Below, piece by piece: positions 34,457-60,883 of a DNA stretch of 64,000 bases. Made by a program: the position numbers and the translations under genes. The notes beneath the pieces were generated by a model. The model was not told the origin of the DNA. It searched no databases and saw only the letters and a program-made list of their open reading frames with translations. The DNA is from Palleronia aestuarii. GTDB lineage: Bacteria; Pseudomonadota; Alphaproteobacteria; Rhodobacterales; Rhodobacteraceae. How positions within the stretch are numbered: the stretch's first letter is position 1; each line of letters opens with the position of its first letter. Where the stretch lies: contig NZ_QKZL01000007.1 in NCBI RefSeq assembly GCF_003253995.1, forward strand, positions 124,001 to 188,000, given 5' to 3'.

Positions 34457-34863
34457 TCCGGCCGCTAGTCGAATAGACCGCGCCGGTTTCGAAGACCTAT
34501 CTTTCAACACGAACGGGCCGTTACCCGATCCGATAATCGGTCCGCGACCGTACGATCGGTAAAGATTCCCTGAACGTGCGGCAGGTTATCCCGGTATCCG
34601 ACGGCCGCGTCGCCTGTCTGGAAAGGTTTCCGGGCTCGGCGATCTGGCCGTCGGACCTGACCCCCAGAGGTTTCGAACCCGGCGCCCTCCTCCAACCCTG
34701 ACCGCCCGCGCAGCGCGCAGGCCTCGCCCCGGACATCCTACCGACCGACCGGATCATTCGAACCTTTCCGCCGAAAGGCGCGTGTTCGGGTCTCGAAACG
34801 TCAAACGTCACCTGCCGGCTTCCCGGCGGGCGATCCGCCCTGAAAATCAGACGGAAGGACGAC
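34457..34863. other. 407-base gap upstream of the spike module
   Basis: No gene is recognised. Short open frames here have no ribosome sites or family features. Short inverted repeats occur (CCTTTC/GAAAGG near 34769 and GGCGG/CCGCC near 34827-34841). A GGAAGGAC lies just before the ATG at 34864. The interval probably holds the promoter and leader of the spike genes. Confidence 0.5.
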
Positions 34864-35139
34864 ATGCCACGGATGAAGTACCAATCGGAAACGAAGTACC
34901 TGCCGCCTGGCGAACCACATTACCGCGACATCACGCTGATGGTCGATCCGGGCAACGGCGGTGGCCGAATCGAGATTCAGGTGATGGATGCCAGCGGCGA
35001 TACCGAAGCCGCCTGGTACACTCCCGAGGACGGGGCGACCTACCAGGTCAAGGGCGCCTTCGCGGTCCGTCGGGCGAACACCCCCCCCATGCGCATCATC
35101 AGCTTCAACGGCGCAAAATTCGAGGTTATCGGCAAATGA
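34864..35139 (+). CDS. 91-aa protein paired with the beta-helix spike protein
   Basis: A small, beta-rich, soluble protein (MPRMKYQSETKYLPPGEPHY, then RDITLMVDPGNGGGRIEIQV and FAVRRANTPPMRIISFNGAKFEVIG) without signal peptide, Cys or membrane segment. Its stop overlaps the next ATG (ATGA at 35136-35139), so the two are translated together. A short beta protein directly before a large fibre protein resembles the base plus fibre pairing of head spikes in Rhodobacter gene transfer agent (ghs genes) or of phage tailspikes; this is by arrangement, not homology I can prove. Confidence 0.55.
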   Translation: MPRMKYQSETKYLPPGEPHYRDITLMVDPGNGGGRIEIQVMDASGDTEAAWYTPEDGATYQVKGAFAVRRANTPPMRIISFNGAKFEVIGK

Positions 35140-37958
35140 GCGATTCAATCCACCTGGGATCCATTTTTCTCAAGCGTAGCGTGACGGCCGGCGCGGGGAC
35201 GATGATCCCGGTCATTTCGATCTCCCCCACGACAGGTGTCGTCGAGAGCACGATTCCGGGCGCGCCGCATCCGTGGAAGGTGAACGATGTCACCGTCACT
35301 GGCGTGACGGAGAACCCGACGACGCTGGCAGAACTCGGGGCCAATGCCGGGGACGTCATTTCTGCAAAGATCAAGAGGTATTCCGCCCAGGCCATCGTTC
35401 CCGATCTCCCGGAGGTCTCACCGCCATCGGATAACCCGATCATCATCACGATCAATGCCACCTTCGATCCCGCGAGTCCCACCGATCAGACCGAGATCCG
35501 TCTCGTCGCGCCGGAGACTGCGGATGCCACGGCCAAAGTCAGTCTCGATGCACTGACACTCGACTCCCGCGATATCCGCGCAGAGGTCATCGAACGCGAC
35601 GGTGATCTGGTCCTGCCGCAGTCCACGGCGGGCGTCCTCCAGGCTGAATGGCGGATCTCCACCGACGCCGGATATTTCGTCACCACCATCGAAACGACCG
35701 TTACGGCAGCGACGGCCGAAGAAGAAGCCGATGCCGGCACCCCCGTCACGGACGGTGGAACCGATAACGCGACGGATCAGGTCGAGGCGCCGGGCTCCAA
35801 TGTGCCGGGCAATGATCTTCCCACGATCACCTCCGAGCCCAGCTTCGAACCCGCGCTTCCCAAGACGGGCCAGACCGTCTCGCTGCTCCCGCCGACCGTC
35901 GACTCGCAGACGGCCTCGATCACGCTGAAGAGCGTTCTTGCCGGCGGCATCGATGTCACCGGTCAGGTGCGCGAAATCTCCGGGACGCAAACGATCACGG
36001 TTTCCGCGCCGGGCGAGCTCGTTGCCACGTGGCGCGTCGCGGATGGCGGAGCGGAACTCGCCGTCGAGGCGAAGGTCGTCGTGTCGTCCAGTGCCGGCGC
36101 CGATCTCGAGAAGGCGAGCGTGATCGTGCACAGGGTCGACGACGTCGCGCCATCCGGAGCGATCTTCGAGATCAAGGACATTTCCGAAGACGTCTACGCC
36201 ACGGCGGGATTCGTCTGGGAATTCTCCGATGGCGGCGATTACAAGGCGTTGCGCGATGGCCATCCGTGGAAGATCGACGGCAAACGCTGGTGCCTCACGC
36301 CGAAGGCCGTTCGGGTCTTCGAGACGCCGGGTCAGGTCAAGTGGACACTCGATATTCACTACAAGGGCCAGCATCGTCGTCTGTCCGGTTCGCTCGACGT
36401 GCGCGATCCGGCAACGGTCGTTCCCGATGCCAACCGCTTCCACGTATCGCCTTCCGGAACCTTCCCAAAAGGTGCCGCCAATACGTTCGCGAGCTTCGAT
36501 GCGGCGCAGAAGGGTGCGCTCGCCCGATCGAAGGACATCAAGTCCCCGGTGGCGATCCTGTTCCGGGCGGGCGAAGAGCATTCCGCAGGCTTCATCGAGG
36601 CTGCCGACGGTTTCAAGAACGGATTGTGGATCACGCGGTACGGCGATGGCGTCAATCCGCTGCTCAAGCCGCGCAGCGATCAGGGCAGCATTCTGACCCT
36701 CCGGTCGTTCCAGGGCGTCAAGACCTCGGGGCTCGACTTCAAGGCCGGATGGGACCAGTCGACGGAGACCAACTCGCTCGACAAGCTCTATGACGGGATC
36801 GCGGTCGAGAACTTCAATCGGCACGATTACCGGACGAACCTCCTCCTGCACGATTGCCGGTTCGAGGGCTGCCGCTTCGGCGTCAACATGACGGTTTCGG
36901 TCACCAATCAGGACGGAAAGGCGGTTGATTTCGGCTATCACAGCGGCACGGCCGTGCTCTCGGAACTGCAGGCGATCCGTCCCGACACGAAAGGGTGGTC
37001 GAGCCTCGACTACAACTTCTACGGCGCGGCGGAGCGGATCGGTTTCTGCGGAATACGATCAAACCAGCATCCCGATGCGCTCGGCGGCGGTTACGGCAAG
37101 AACAACACCCACAACCAGCACGGGATCGTGCGCCTGGTTTCCGCAAGATCGGCGGTCATGTGGGCCTTCGACGGCGACTCGAAGGTCGGCTGGACCAAGG
37201 TCGGCTCCAACAAGGACGGCGGTTTGCTGAAACAGATCCCGGCCCACCAGCCCGTGATCCGGTGGGGTGCCTCGGGGTGGCTGCTCGGGTCCGAAAGCTG
37301 CCTCGGCGGGGCCGTGGCGGAAGGTGGATCCGGCATCCATGTCGGGACCTCGTCGAGCAATGCTGTTTCCCGTCCCGGTCGCCACACGATCTGCAACAAT
37401 CTCGTCGTCGCGTCGGCGAACAGCATGTCGGCCATCACCGCGGCCTATGCGGGGACGAGCGTGCATACGAACATCGTCATCTGTCCCGATTCCCGCCCGG
37501 AATATTACAGCGGGTTCCAAAACTTCATCCAGCTCTGGGGTCCGGGTACGCAGGACGAATTCGGCAGTATCGACTTCAAGTTCTGGGCCTTCAGCAACTC
37601 GCTCATCAACCTCAACGGCAAGCCCTGCAACAAGGGCAACGTCGCGACCGGTGGCGCGGTCAAGGAGATCATCGTCTCCAACAACCTCGTCCATGCCCCG
37701 AAGGAGTATACCGGCGCGGTCACGTCGCATGGTCCGCTCGACGACACGGTGATCCTGCAGCCGCAATACAAGGGTCACCGCTGGGCGGACTCGCCGAAGC
37801 TCGACACCGCCTACGCCACGCCGGCCAACACGGTGTCGCTCTACCGGCCACTGGAGGGTGCGGGAGCGATCGGAGCGGCGGATCCCGCCAAGCCGGTCTC
37901 CGAACTCGATTTCTTCGGTCGGCTCAGGGGCGCCGTGAAGAACATCGGCGCGATTTGA
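35136..37958 (+). CDS. Large beta-helix spike/fibre protein (phage or gene-transfer-agent-like)
   Basis: A 940-aa protein lacking a signal peptide. The N-terminal 430 residues are beta-rich modules with repeated features: HPWKVNDVTV near residue 50 and HPWKIDGKRW near 380, and Thr/Ser/Asp-rich Ig-like segments with an acidic linker (about 185-235). From about 435 (FHVSPSGTFPKGAANTFASF) the sequence resembles pectate-lyase-type right-handed beta-helices: regular Asn/Gly turns, TNLLLHDCRFEGCRFG, YNFYGAAERIGFCGIRSNQH. It ends FDFFGRLRG-like (ELDFFGRLRGAVKNIG), common in beta-helix proteins. Such folds bind or cut surface polysaccharide. No other phage gene is adjacent. Confidence 0.6.
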   Translation: MSDSIHLGSIFLKRSVTAGAGTMIPVISISPTTGVVESTIPGAPHPWKVNDVTVTGVTENPTTLAELGANAGDVISAKIKRYSAQAIVPDLPEVSPPSDNPIIITINATFDPASPTDQTEIRLVAPETADATAKVSLDALTLDSRDIRAEVIERDGDLVLPQSTAGVLQAEWRISTDAGYFVTTIETTVTAATAEEEADAGTPVTDGGTDNATDQVEAPGSNVPGNDLPTITSEPSFEPALPKTGQTVSLLPPTVDSQTASITLKSVLAGGIDVTGQVREISGTQTITVSAPGELVATWRVADGGAELAVEAKVVVSSSAGADLEKASVIVHRVDDVAPSGAIFEIKDISEDVYATAGFVWEFSDGGDYKALRDGHPWKIDGKRWCLTPKAVRVFETPGQVKWTLDIHYKGQHRRLSGSLDVRDPATVVPDANRFHVSPSGTFPKGAANTFASFDAAQKGALARSKDIKSPVAILFRAGEEHSAGFIEAADGFKNGLWITRYGDGVNPLLKPRSDQGSILTLRSFQGVKTSGLDFKAGWDQSTETNSLDKLYDGIAVENFNRHDYRTNLLLHDCRFEGCRFGVNMTVSVTNQDGKAVDFGYHSGTAVLSELQAIRPDTKGWSSLDYNFYGAAERIGFCGIRSNQHPDALGGGYGKNNTHNQHGIVRLVSARSAVMWAFDGDSKVGWTKVGSNKDGGLLKQIPAHQPVIRWGASGWLLGSESCLGGAVAEGGSGIHVGTSSSNAVSRPGRHTICNNLVVASANSMSAITAAYAGTSVHTNIVICPDSRPEYYSGFQNFIQLWGPGTQDEFGSIDFKFWAFSNSLINLNGKPCNKGNVATGGAVKEIIVSNNLVHAPKEYTGAVTSHGPLDDTVILQPQYKGHRWADSPKLDTAYATPANTVSLYRPLEGAGAIGAADPAKPVSELDFFGRLRGAVKNIGAI

Positions 37959-38066: not shown

Positions 38067-38339
38067 CTACTTGAGCTGGCTGTCCTTACTCGCGCGGCGA
38101 TTGATGCCGGCCGCAGGTCTTTGGCGAGCGTCCCGCTCGGATTGACACTCGATGCAAAGCTGAACGCCCGGGCGGGCCGCCCGGCGGGGTTCCGGGATCG
38201 GCTCCTCGCATTCGGCGCAATGGGTACGCGACGCTGCACCCGTGGGGACCTGGCGGGACCTGAGACGGGCGAGTTCGTCGGCGACCGACGCCTCGATCTG
38301 CTCGTTCACCGCACCGTCGCGTGCCCAACCGCCTGCCAT
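38067..38339 (-). CDS. DksA/TraR-type zinc finger protein
   Basis: A 90-aa protein with the C4 zinc finger of the DksA/TraR family: CAECEEPIP, then GVQLCIECQ (CxxC...CxxC). An acidic-basic N-terminal helix (VNEQIEASVADELARLR) precedes it. The length is that of TraR-like short members, which bind the secondary channel of RNA polymerase; whether this one does is unknown. AGGAGG lies 8 bases before the ATG at 38339. It converges with the spike gene and diverges from argO. Confidence 0.88.
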   Translation of the reverse strand: MAGGWARDGAVNEQIEASVADELARLRSRQVPTGAASRTHCAECEEPIPEPRRAARPGVQLCIECQSERDARQRPAAGINRRASKDSQLK

Positions 38340-38432
38340 GTCCGATCCTCCTGCCAGTACCATAGGAATATCACCCGGGGATGGCAACGCGCGGGGCTGG
38401 ACCTCCCCTCGGGGGGGGCGTAGGTCGGCGCC

Positions 38433-58931: not shown

Positions 58932-59803
58932 GACTCAGGGCTCATAGCCAATAGATGACGGTGGCGGTGAGCGCGATGGCCGAGAGGAAGACCTCGGGGC
59001 ATCGGTCACAGCGCGTGGCCACACGGCGCCAATCCTTGATGCGGCCGAACATGATCTCGATACGATGTCGGCGCCGGTATCTGCGTTTGTCGTATTTGAT
59101 CGGGATCGTGCGCGACTTGCGCGGCGAAATGCAGGCCCGAATTCTGCTTTCCGACAGAGAGTTACGGAACCAGTCGGCGTCGTGGCCGCGGTCGGCGAGA
59201 AACCAGTCCGATTGCGGAAAGCCGCTCTGGAGCGCGAGCGCGCCCTTGTAGTCGCTGATTTGGCCGGCGGCTATAATGAGGCGGACAAGGCGACCCTCGC
59301 GGTCGGTGACGGCATGGAGCTTGGTATTCATCCCGCCGTCCTCGGGGAAACGATCCACCGGATCGTCTCCTGATCCTCGAACTCCGCCCGATCAGGCGGC
59401 CACGCCCCCCTTTTGAAGGCGCAGGCTTGAGGCCGTCCGGTGCGCCTTCAGATGGGTCGTGTCGATCATGATCGTCCGGCAATCGGCTTGCTCGGCGGCG
59501 AGCCCCTCCATGATCCGCGCGAACGCGCCCATGCGGCTCCACCCGATCCAGCGATTGTAGAGCGTCTTGTGCGGGCCGTATTCACGCGGCGCGTCCCGCC
59601 AGCGCAAACCGTTGCGATCGATGAATACAATACCACTGAGTACGCGCTTGTCGTCCATCCGGCGACCGCCATGCGACTTCGGGAAACAGGGGCGCAGCCG
59701 CACCATCTGAGCGTCGGTCGGCCAGAAAAGATCACTCATCGTCAGCCTCCTTCTGGCGAAGGCTGAATCACGCAGCGCCGTCCTGATCGATGGGTCCTGA
59801 GCC
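58932..59803 (-). mobile_element. IS5-group insertion sequence (IS427-like), 872 bp
   Basis: Bounded by terminal inverted repeats GACTCAGGGCTCAT (left) and, on the other strand, GGCTCAGGACCCAT (right), 11 of 14 matching, with TA on both flanks (58930-58931 and 59804-59805) as expected for TA target duplication. It contains the two-part transposase gene. The right-end leader of about 70 bases is identical to bases 63857-63929, where a second element begins in opposite orientation. Confidence 0.8.
58942..59739 (-). pseudogene. IS5-family (IS427-type) transposase, disrupted
   Basis: The first part (59392-59739, 115 aa, MSDLFWPTDAQMVRLRPCFP start, MIDTTHLKAHRTASS with the first catalytic Asp) ends at a stop after a G6 slippery run (AAAAGGGGGGC). 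The second part (from 59334, MNTKLHAVTDREG, LADRGHDADWFR and RIEIMFGRIKDWRRVATR) carries the remaining DDE residues. In this group the parts are joined by a -1 frameshift, but about 40 extra bases follow the slippery site, putting both parts in the same frame with the stop between, so a full protein cannot be made by one slip. Confidence 0.75.
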
Positions 59804-59833
59804 TAAGAAATGCACAGATGGCGCGTCTTGAAT

Positions 59834-60883
59834 GGCCTTGTTGCACATATCGGTGAGAAGGATTCACTTCGGGAATCCTGATAGTTAGATCGATGGCATG
59901 CCAAAGCCTGCCAACACCCGCTACCGCACGACGAACTGGTCTGACTATAACGCTGCGTTGAAGCGGCGAGGATCGTTGTCCGTCTGGTTCGATCCTGAAA
60001 TGTCCCGGCAGGCGGATCGAAACGGCAAGCGTGGCCACCCCCAGACCTTCTCCGACAGCGCCATTCAGACCTGTCTCACGCTGAAAGTCCCGTTCGGCCT
60101 GCCGCTTCGCCAGATCGTCGATCTCGTCGAGAGCCTGATCGAGATGGCCGGGCTCGACTGGCCCGTTCTGGACTATTCGACGCTGTGCCGACGTCAGGCT
60201 CGGATCCAGGTACAGATCCCGTATCGGCGCTCCGGCAAGCCGCTGAGCCTGCCGATCGACAGGACCGGCATCCGTTTTCGTGGCGACGGCGAATGGCTGG
60301 CCCGCAAGCACGGTGCGACGCGCAGACGCGAATGGCGGAAGGTTCATCTAACAATGGACACCGCCACTGGCGATATCCGTGCGGTCGAATTTACCACAAG
60401 CAGACAGGGCGATAGCCCGATCCTGCCGGAGCTGCTGTCGCAGATCCCGGCCGACGAGGGCATTGAGACAGTCACGGCCGACGGAGCCTATGACACACGC
60501 CGCTGCCATGCGGCGATCCTCGAGCATCGCGCCGAACCGATCATCCCGATCCGTCGCAATGGGCGAGCGTGGAAGCCGGACTGCCCTGCCGCGATATCGC
60601 GAAACGAGATCCTGAAGGCGACGCGCTGTGTGGGGTGATCGATCCGGAAGAAATGGGCAGGCTATCACATCCGAAGTCGCGTCGAGGCCCGGATGAACCG
60701 CCTCAAGCTCTTCTGCGACCAGATCATGTCACGAGACCCCGATCGCCAGACCGCCGGAATTCAGACCCGCATCGCCATCATGAACCGCTGCTCGGCCCTT
60801 GGAAGGGCCGAGATCGAAGCCGTTGCCTGAGCCCAACGGGGAAAGGACAGAGCATCATCACCTCCGATTAGCGCAACAGGGTC
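59834..60883 (+). mobile_element. IS5/IS903-like insertion sequence, about 1,050 bp
   Basis: Ends are defined by imperfect inverted repeats GGCCTTGTTGCAC (left) and, on the other strand, GACCCTGTTGCGC (right), typical of the IS903 subgroup. It starts 30 bases beyond the end of the neighbouring IS. No 9-bp target duplication is visible, so the ends have drifted or the element has rearranged. Confidence 0.7.
59898..60830 (+). pseudogene. IS5/IS903-type transposase with in-frame stop
   Basis: The open frame is continuous over 311 codons except for one TGA at 60636-60638. Before it: RYRTTNWSDYNAALKRRGSL start, LPIDRTGIRFRGDGEW (first Asp), KVHLTMDTATGDI and VTADGAYDTR (second Asp). After it, in the same frame: RKKWAGYHIRSRVEARMNRL with the catalytic Glu, ending RAEIEAVA. 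A CGA to TGA change would explain the stop, so it is a nonsense rather than frameshift mutation. The shortened 246-aa product lacks the DDE glutamate and should be inactive. Confidence 0.85.

Follow-up and report, generated by a model that had tools for sequence, protein, structure and literature searches.

Does an isolated gene pair of Palleronia aestuarii encode a virion-type surface spike, and if so, is its carrier the cell's own gene transfer agent (GTA) or a phage? The pair, P0002 (91 amino acids, aa) and P0001 (940 aa), lies in a 64,000-nucleotide stretch of DNA (the window; C7:124001-188000, where C7 is contig NZ_QKZL01000007.1) from a genome of 77 contigs. The window ends 171 bases short of the contig end, and the pair sits 26 kb from that end. 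A first-pass annotation of the window had proposed an orphan head-spike locus of a GTA. Based on our comparisons, the pair is probably a virion-type surface spike module, best read as a cassette in which the spike comes with an alternative base and which may serve the GTA. Throughout, G-numbers denote sampled or related genomes, L-numbers loci, and C-numbers contigs of the genome named, while z values compare an alignment score with those of shuffled sequences. The coordinates, frames, and coupled two-gene layout given by the first-pass annotation were correct:

34864..35139, forward strand: P0002, 91 aa, proposed spike base of the phrog_13099 family (open reading frame, ORF, plus family match)
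35136..35139, forward strand: ATGA overlap of the P0002 stop and the P0001 start (sequence)
35136..37958, forward strand: P0001, 940 aa, proposed spike (ORF)

The ATGA overlap suggests translational coupling of the two genes.

Judged by sequence, P0002 has its homologs in a family of virion proteins. It has no Pfam family above the cut-off and matches the phrog_13099 model (virion structural protein) with E = 1.3e-6. An 18-row profile of phrog_13099-type proteins, P0002 being one of the rows, has 21 invariant columns and a single match in the P. aestuarii genome, P0002 itself (E = 3.3e-19). One member of phrog_13099, gp80 of phage RPP1, was detected in virions by mass spectrometry and labelled a "host-like protein, 10 predicted beta-strands," according to the portion of the report available to us (PMC4193335). 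A tblastn search with P0002 found 10 phage records of roseobacter hosts (E 1e-4 to 8e-3), a query with a phage member of the family found 27, and all four of the records we opened were N4-like (Schitoviridae, Rhodovirinae). Against the PDB, P0002 gave weak matches only, the best to a "Depolymerase" (E = 0.16), and P0002 alone, scanned against IMG/VR and GTDB contigs, yielded no confirmed relative.

The N4-like roseophages resemble the pair in layout as well: their gp80 homolog of P0002 is directly followed by a partner gene, either phrog_12736 or shorter ORFs. The phrog_13099 gene overlaps the start of the downstream ORF (362-779 aa) by one base in 9 of 18 IMG/VR contigs (L022, L025, L027, L028, L031, L034, L036, L038, and L039), with a gap in the other nine. 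The differences are that the large phage partners are unrelated to P0001 except for a weak patch and that no phage genome surrounds the pair.

The closest P0002 relatives that we found are from bacterial hosts. A plasmid collection yielded three host records with such relatives, two from Roseobacter denitrificans and R. litoralis pROLI127 (proteins WP_143090282 and WP_262386612; L167 and L168). In the two records opened, an 86-aa gene overlaps a 64-71-aa ORF by ATGA, as P0002 overlaps its neighbor, and next comes a 617-626-aa ORF with a sialate O-acetylesterase annotation. Both 86-aa proteins match phrog_13099 at about 1e-14. The trio is surrounded by genes for glycosyltransferases, a nucleotide-sugar dehydrogenase, and a flippase, which makes these exopolysaccharide (EPS) clusters on plasmids in two species. 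Unlike the P. aestuarii pair, the Roseobacter genes thus combine the base with a small ORF and an annotated esterase rather than a beta-helix spike, and they stand inside an EPS cluster. Elsewhere in the family, the phrog_13099 model matched one of 345 sampled genomes, and that one was P. aestuarii; P0002 itself matched none of 59 further relatives, which included 13 congeners. Since the family samples hold about one genome per genus, rare relatives of P0002 may be missed.

P0001 has no Pfam family above the cut-off and no PHROG family. It starts with MSDSIHLGSIFLKRS and can be divided as follows:

35256..35384, forward strand: aa 41-83, segment resembling the linker (W..DGV.I.G.T) of N4-like roseophage partner proteins (hhalign probability 1.6%, suggestive, weak)
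35430..35726, forward strand: aa 99-197, immunoglobulin (Ig)-like repeat 1 (label by reading), homologous to the prophage 249-aa protein at C1:272 kb (z = 19.1)
35811..36104, forward strand: aa 226-323, Ig-like repeat 2 (label by reading; z = 11.2 with repeat 1 and 15.4 with the prophage 249-aa protein)
36378..37955, forward strand: aa 415-940, conserved spike domain of probable right-handed beta-helix fold (18 relatives aligned)

The C-terminal half of P0001, from about aa 415 to 940 (~520 aa), is homologous to 18 proteins in shuffle-controlled alignments (z 8.9-45, the weakest from G285); five unrelated controls gave z of -0.6 to 1.8, and one phrog_12736-type partner gave z = 1.0. Among the relatives is the 1374-aa tailspike-like protein of a prophage in the same genome. 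This siphovirus-like prophage (C1:254-281 kb; L011, L012) has a portal identified by family and a tail, an amidase, the 1374-aa spike, and an integrase identified by reading, and IMGVR_UViG_2593339276 contains ORFs of the same lengths and starts. Including P. aestuarii, 10 of 325 family genomes carry the P0001 domain at E <= 1e-5, and P0001 was matched in 2 of the 13 other genomes of the genus. The domain is also found on plasmids of Jannaschia W003, Palleronia LCG004, Rhodovulum P5, and Ruegeria SCSIO 43209; the Jannaschia, Rhodovulum, and Ruegeria copies lie amid EPS and XrtD exosortase genes (three of three records opened). Judged from ORF lists, relatives occur in three prophage-like settings (C1 of P. 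aestuarii, G007 C1, and G128 C1). A P0001-like spike in another prophage-like locus (L018 7591-10647) carries a GDSL/SGNH esterase domain at its end (PF13472, E = 5.8e-13), as would suit the modification of polysaccharides.

The beta-helix half claimed by the first-pass annotation is borne out as a conserved domain. Its fold is probably a right-handed beta-helix, as hinted weakly by lacto-N-biosidase in the PDB (E = 0.0034, profile A5) and by Pfam Beta_helix in 1 of 13 members (E = 0.0035, P0001 itself not being matched). Of the Ig-like N-terminal modules, two repeats homologous to each other stand, with no Pfam match behind the name "Ig-like." A third repeat was not shown, as aa 324-421 gave z of -0.4 and 1.2 against the repeats and 3.5 against aa 1-98. 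The prophage protein that carries the P0001 repeat is encoded upstream of the 1374-aa spike.

If the pair is a spike module, how does it relate to the head spike of RcGTA, the GTA of Rhodobacter capsulatus? That spike consists of the base Rcc01079 and the fiber Rcc01080 (GhsA/GhsB; PDB 6TBA). We traced the base family via phage RcapNL, whose 85-aa protein belongs to phrog_12296 and matches Rcc01079 in PDB 6tb9 (E = 2.9e-30); a RcapNL match to rcc01079 is mentioned in the part of PMC8601537 available to us. phrog_12296 is found in 100 of 295 family genomes and in 6 of the 13 other genomes of the genus (E <= 1.4e-19), and was not found in the P. aestuarii genome at E up to 1. Read from their ORF starts, EPS-type genes adjoin this base in G003, G007, G010, and G012 and were not recognized beside it in G001 or the seen stretch of G011. 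Many of the fibers that follow such bases open with LGLG-like peptides, and some loci lack a clear fiber, among them G007:C5 and G011:C14/C44. A P0001-like spike is encoded in both of these genomes, on the same contig as the base and near EPS-type genes in G007 and at the end of another contig in G011.

The spike half and the RcGTA-type base occur together in some relatives. Among the nine other genomes with the P0001 domain, five (G116, G221, G162, G285, and G349) have a phrog_12296 base 1-13 kb from it; by our rough estimate, such closeness within 13 kb would be rare by chance in a 4-Mb genome (<1% per genome). For the other four, the base is on another contig in G330 and G289, none was reported in G128, and in G154 the match is 1.5 kb long at a contig end. 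G116 encodes base, a 379-aa fiber, and spike consecutively on one strand. The same order is found in an EPS cluster on pRGUI04 of Rhodovulum sp. P5, where the base (phrog_12296, E = 1.5e-25) and a 296-aa fiber are one base apart and the fiber overlaps a 998-aa P0001-like spike by ATGA. This spike is homologous to P0001 aa 459-905 (z = 27.5), and over about 80 residues the fiber has a further match (E = 2e-5) to phrog_12736, the family that supplies the partners of phrog_13099. As in P. aestuarii, a small base gene heads the run; unlike there, the base is of phrog_12296, a separate fiber lies in between, and the run is in an EPS cluster. From these sequences, P. aestuarii has the other base family, with stalk and spike half in one chain. 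Our literature searches found no paper describing host genomes with a spike base of the phrog_13099 type or such spikes near head-spike base genes.

The genome does contain a candidate GTA. An RcGTA-type cluster, which the first-pass annotation had suggested looking for elsewhere in the genome, is present on C4; it includes a portal and a 1317-aa megatron carrying GTA_TIM (PF13547, E = 6e-148) and Rcc01698_C. With this cluster on C4, the prophage on C1, and the pair on C7, the pair is indeed far from any phage or GTA cluster, as described before, and an absence of any GTA or phage from genomes carrying the pair, named by the annotation as contrary to its proposal, was not what we found. The likeness to the RcGTA head spike lies in a small base gene directly before a larger fiber gene, in a position outside the main GTA cluster of a genome that has an RcGTA-type cluster, and in a surface polysaccharide as the target, known for RcGTA and presumed for the pair. 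The differences lie in P0002 being phrog_13099 rather than phrog_12296, with no detectable similarity, and in P0001 having 940 aa rather than the 325 aa of the RcGTA fiber, no LGLG start, and no recognized capsule genes alongside.

A second comparison is with TspA (Rcc02623), a detachable GTA tailspike as presented in the portion of a preprint that we could consult (PMC13420450). Like the proposed spike P0001, TspA is large and encoded away from the main cluster, with a beta-helix that is shown for TspA and probable in P0001. In that portion of the preprint, TspA differs in its PF12218-like cap, in adjoining lysS, and in having no base protein described. The PF12218 Pfam model has no match in P0001 or the P. 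aestuarii genome, which does not exclude a TspA homolog because TspA is only PF12218-like and the model might miss it. Reading the flanks of the pair, we did not recognize lysS, no search aimed at lysS having been made. TspA shows that GTA spikes with genes outside the cluster come in more than one kind.

Expression signals of the pair were compared with those of GTA genes over the region preceding P0002:

34457..34863, forward strand: upstream region of the pair, without TTAA, holding a GGAAGGA ribosome-binding site at 34853-34859

We take TTAA to be the CtrA half-site. One TTAA-N7-TTAA stands upstream of the C4 GTA cluster, unlike the region upstream of the pair, and a promoter motif common to both was ruled out, there being no TTAA upstream of the pair. 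CtrA half-sites are present at the RcGTA spike genes of R. capsulatus, as given in the portion of PMC9638019 that we saw.

What weighs against a spike module, and against a GTA spike in particular? P0002 homology to Rcc01079 was rejected at the sequence level by hhalign, also with the Roseobacter sequences added: the two families scored 13.4 against each other, compared with 11.2 +/- 2.6 (maximum 19.4) for 60 column-shuffled profiles. The 18-row profile matches just one of 325 sampled family genomes, P. aestuarii. P0001 has no LGLG-type docking peptide at its start; in the part of PMC7296036 available to us, the docking peptide of the RcGTA fiber is IALGLGLGL, of alternating hydrophobic residues and glycine. 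A search of 248 family genomes for a coding-DNA pattern of this peptide gave three matches, none a head-fiber-like gene by reading. No capsule or EPS genes were recognized beside the pair on reading the ORFs of the window and flanks, and there is no TTAA within 407 bp upstream of P0002. Capsule genes adjoin the spike genes of R. capsulatus, according to the portion of PMC10218006 seen. P0001 matched nothing in the phage collection at E 0.01, and beyond the weak patch nothing in its N-terminal part aligned with the roseophage partner proteins. The structural comparison of both proteins with GhsA/GhsB proposed by the first-pass annotation ended in poor AlphaFold models: P0002 with 17 relatives reached a predicted local distance difference test (pLDDT) of 57, a low-confidence model for which neither Foldseek (E <= 0.001) nor VIA-align (Z 2) gave a match, and P0001 alone reached pLDDT 33, too poor for the helix fold as well. 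In the relatives, base and spike share a strand only in G116 and lie on opposite strands in G221, G162, G285, and G349, and their closeness may partly reflect joint membership in EPS clusters; because they are mostly on opposite strands and both in EPS-type clusters, closeness need not mean joint function. Finally, the place of the spike on a GTA particle is our inference.

Because similarity to Rcc01079, the docking peptide, capsule neighbors, and an upstream TTAA were all not found, we do not file the pair as a GhsA/GhsB member; it may work like GhsA/GhsB nonetheless, and a GTA head spike is possible. The GTA-spike proposal is thus partly supported: it loses on those four counts and on the 18-row profile matching no other sampled family genome, and gains from the homology of P0002 to a virion protein detected by mass spectrometry, from the spike half shared with a prophage tailspike and with spike-like ORFs near RcGTA-type base genes, and from the GTA-type cluster. 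In the mechanism that we propose, base and spike would be produced together by coupled translation, with P0002 as the base (adaptor), a foot docking on the particle. The N-terminal part of P0001 would dock on P0002, the Ig-like part would serve as the stalk, and the presumed beta-helix half would bind, and perhaps cut, a surface polysaccharide. Base and spike would assemble inside the cell and exit by lysis on a particle. The cell's own GTA is our tentative choice of carrier, held with somewhat less than even confidence; an incoming or resident phage is an unlikelier one, and otherwise the pair would be idle or working without a particle. It is more doubtful than the GTA as carrier, though still conceivable, that GTA spike cassettes are swappable, with an RcGTA-type base lost or never present in P. 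aestuarii and an unrelated base of the N4-like phage family, coupled to a beta-helix spike, steering particles to cells with a particular polysaccharide.

The alternative that survives best, although unlikely, is a phage moron or remnant, in which the pair arrived with an N4-like or temperate phage and has no role on GTA particles. Of the matches found to the P0002 family, most come from phages of roseobacters (27 records; 18 and 25 IMG/VR loci), and the P0002 profile matches none of the 324 other sampled family genomes. Composition is consistent with such an origin. GC content at third codon positions (GC3) is 0.80 and 0.77 for the two genes of the pair, compared with 0.855 +/- 0.032 for 38 script-selected host ORFs, and resembles the 0.81-0.82 of the GTA and prophage loci (the prophage locus includes some host ORFs); the earlier view that composition is similar to the genome is roughly right, with the pair's GC3 on the low side, near that of these loci. 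A phage-type gene also adjoins the pair:

38067..38345, reverse strand: DksA/TraR-type zinc-finger protein, convergent neighbor, phage-type phrog_54 (E = 4.9e-18; PF01258)

This gene is about 110 bp from the spike gene and, by tblastn among the loci compared, occurs only in those of this same place. It had been noted as an unrelated DksA-like neighbor; it is of the phage/TraR type, and it and the pair may have been acquired in one segment. What speaks against a remnant is that the two reading frames are unbroken and have their overlap and a ribosome-binding site, that P0001, the partner of P0002, is not of the N4-like type, and that two other host species have kept the base in EPS clusters. 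Moreover, no integrase or phage structural gene was recognized in the flanks when read from ORF starts, no family search having been made. No empty site could be read in four relatives (G004, G007, G008, and G013) because the homolog of the left-flank gene has diverged (53-54% identical) and most neighbors differ. Toward the end of contig C7, transposase-like ORFs were noted by reading at 58942-60638 of the window.

Less probable again, and improbable on the whole, is a secreted enzyme that modifies EPS, aided by an accessory protein and independent of any particle. EPS-cutting enzymes are common in EPS clusters, and several relatives of the spike half are in EPS/XrtD clusters, some by annotation and some by reading of ORF starts. 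Residues 18-29 of P0001 are moderately hydrophobic (12-residue peak 1.61, compared with 1.71-2.21 in four presumed-exported controls), and the earlier statement that neither protein has a signal peptide holds insofar as P0001 has no clear Sec signal peptide and is qualified by this segment. The lack of a clear signal peptide and of a GGxGxD motif in P0001 argues against secretion, as do the 91-aa partner from a virion family and the relatives in the three prophage-like settings. Least likely of all is that P0001 serves the resident C1 prophage as a spare spike or mixes with its tailspike: P0001 has two repeats in common with the 249-aa protein and the spike half in common with the 1374-aa spike, but no part of it aligns with aa 1-560 of the latter, the presumed tail-attachment part, and the prophage has its own full-length spike.

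Altogether, the spike-module reading points to a second family of small proteins resembling spike bases that occurs in bacterial genomes. Its gene layout is similar to that of the RcGTA base, to which it has no detectable sequence similarity. The phrog_13099-type base is found in EPS clusters in two of three host species, and members of the spike family lie near base genes of the RcGTA type. The surface parts of GTA particles decide which cells receive DNA. If these spikes are on GTA particles, the choice of gene-transfer partners would be set by exchangeable cassettes that phages share.

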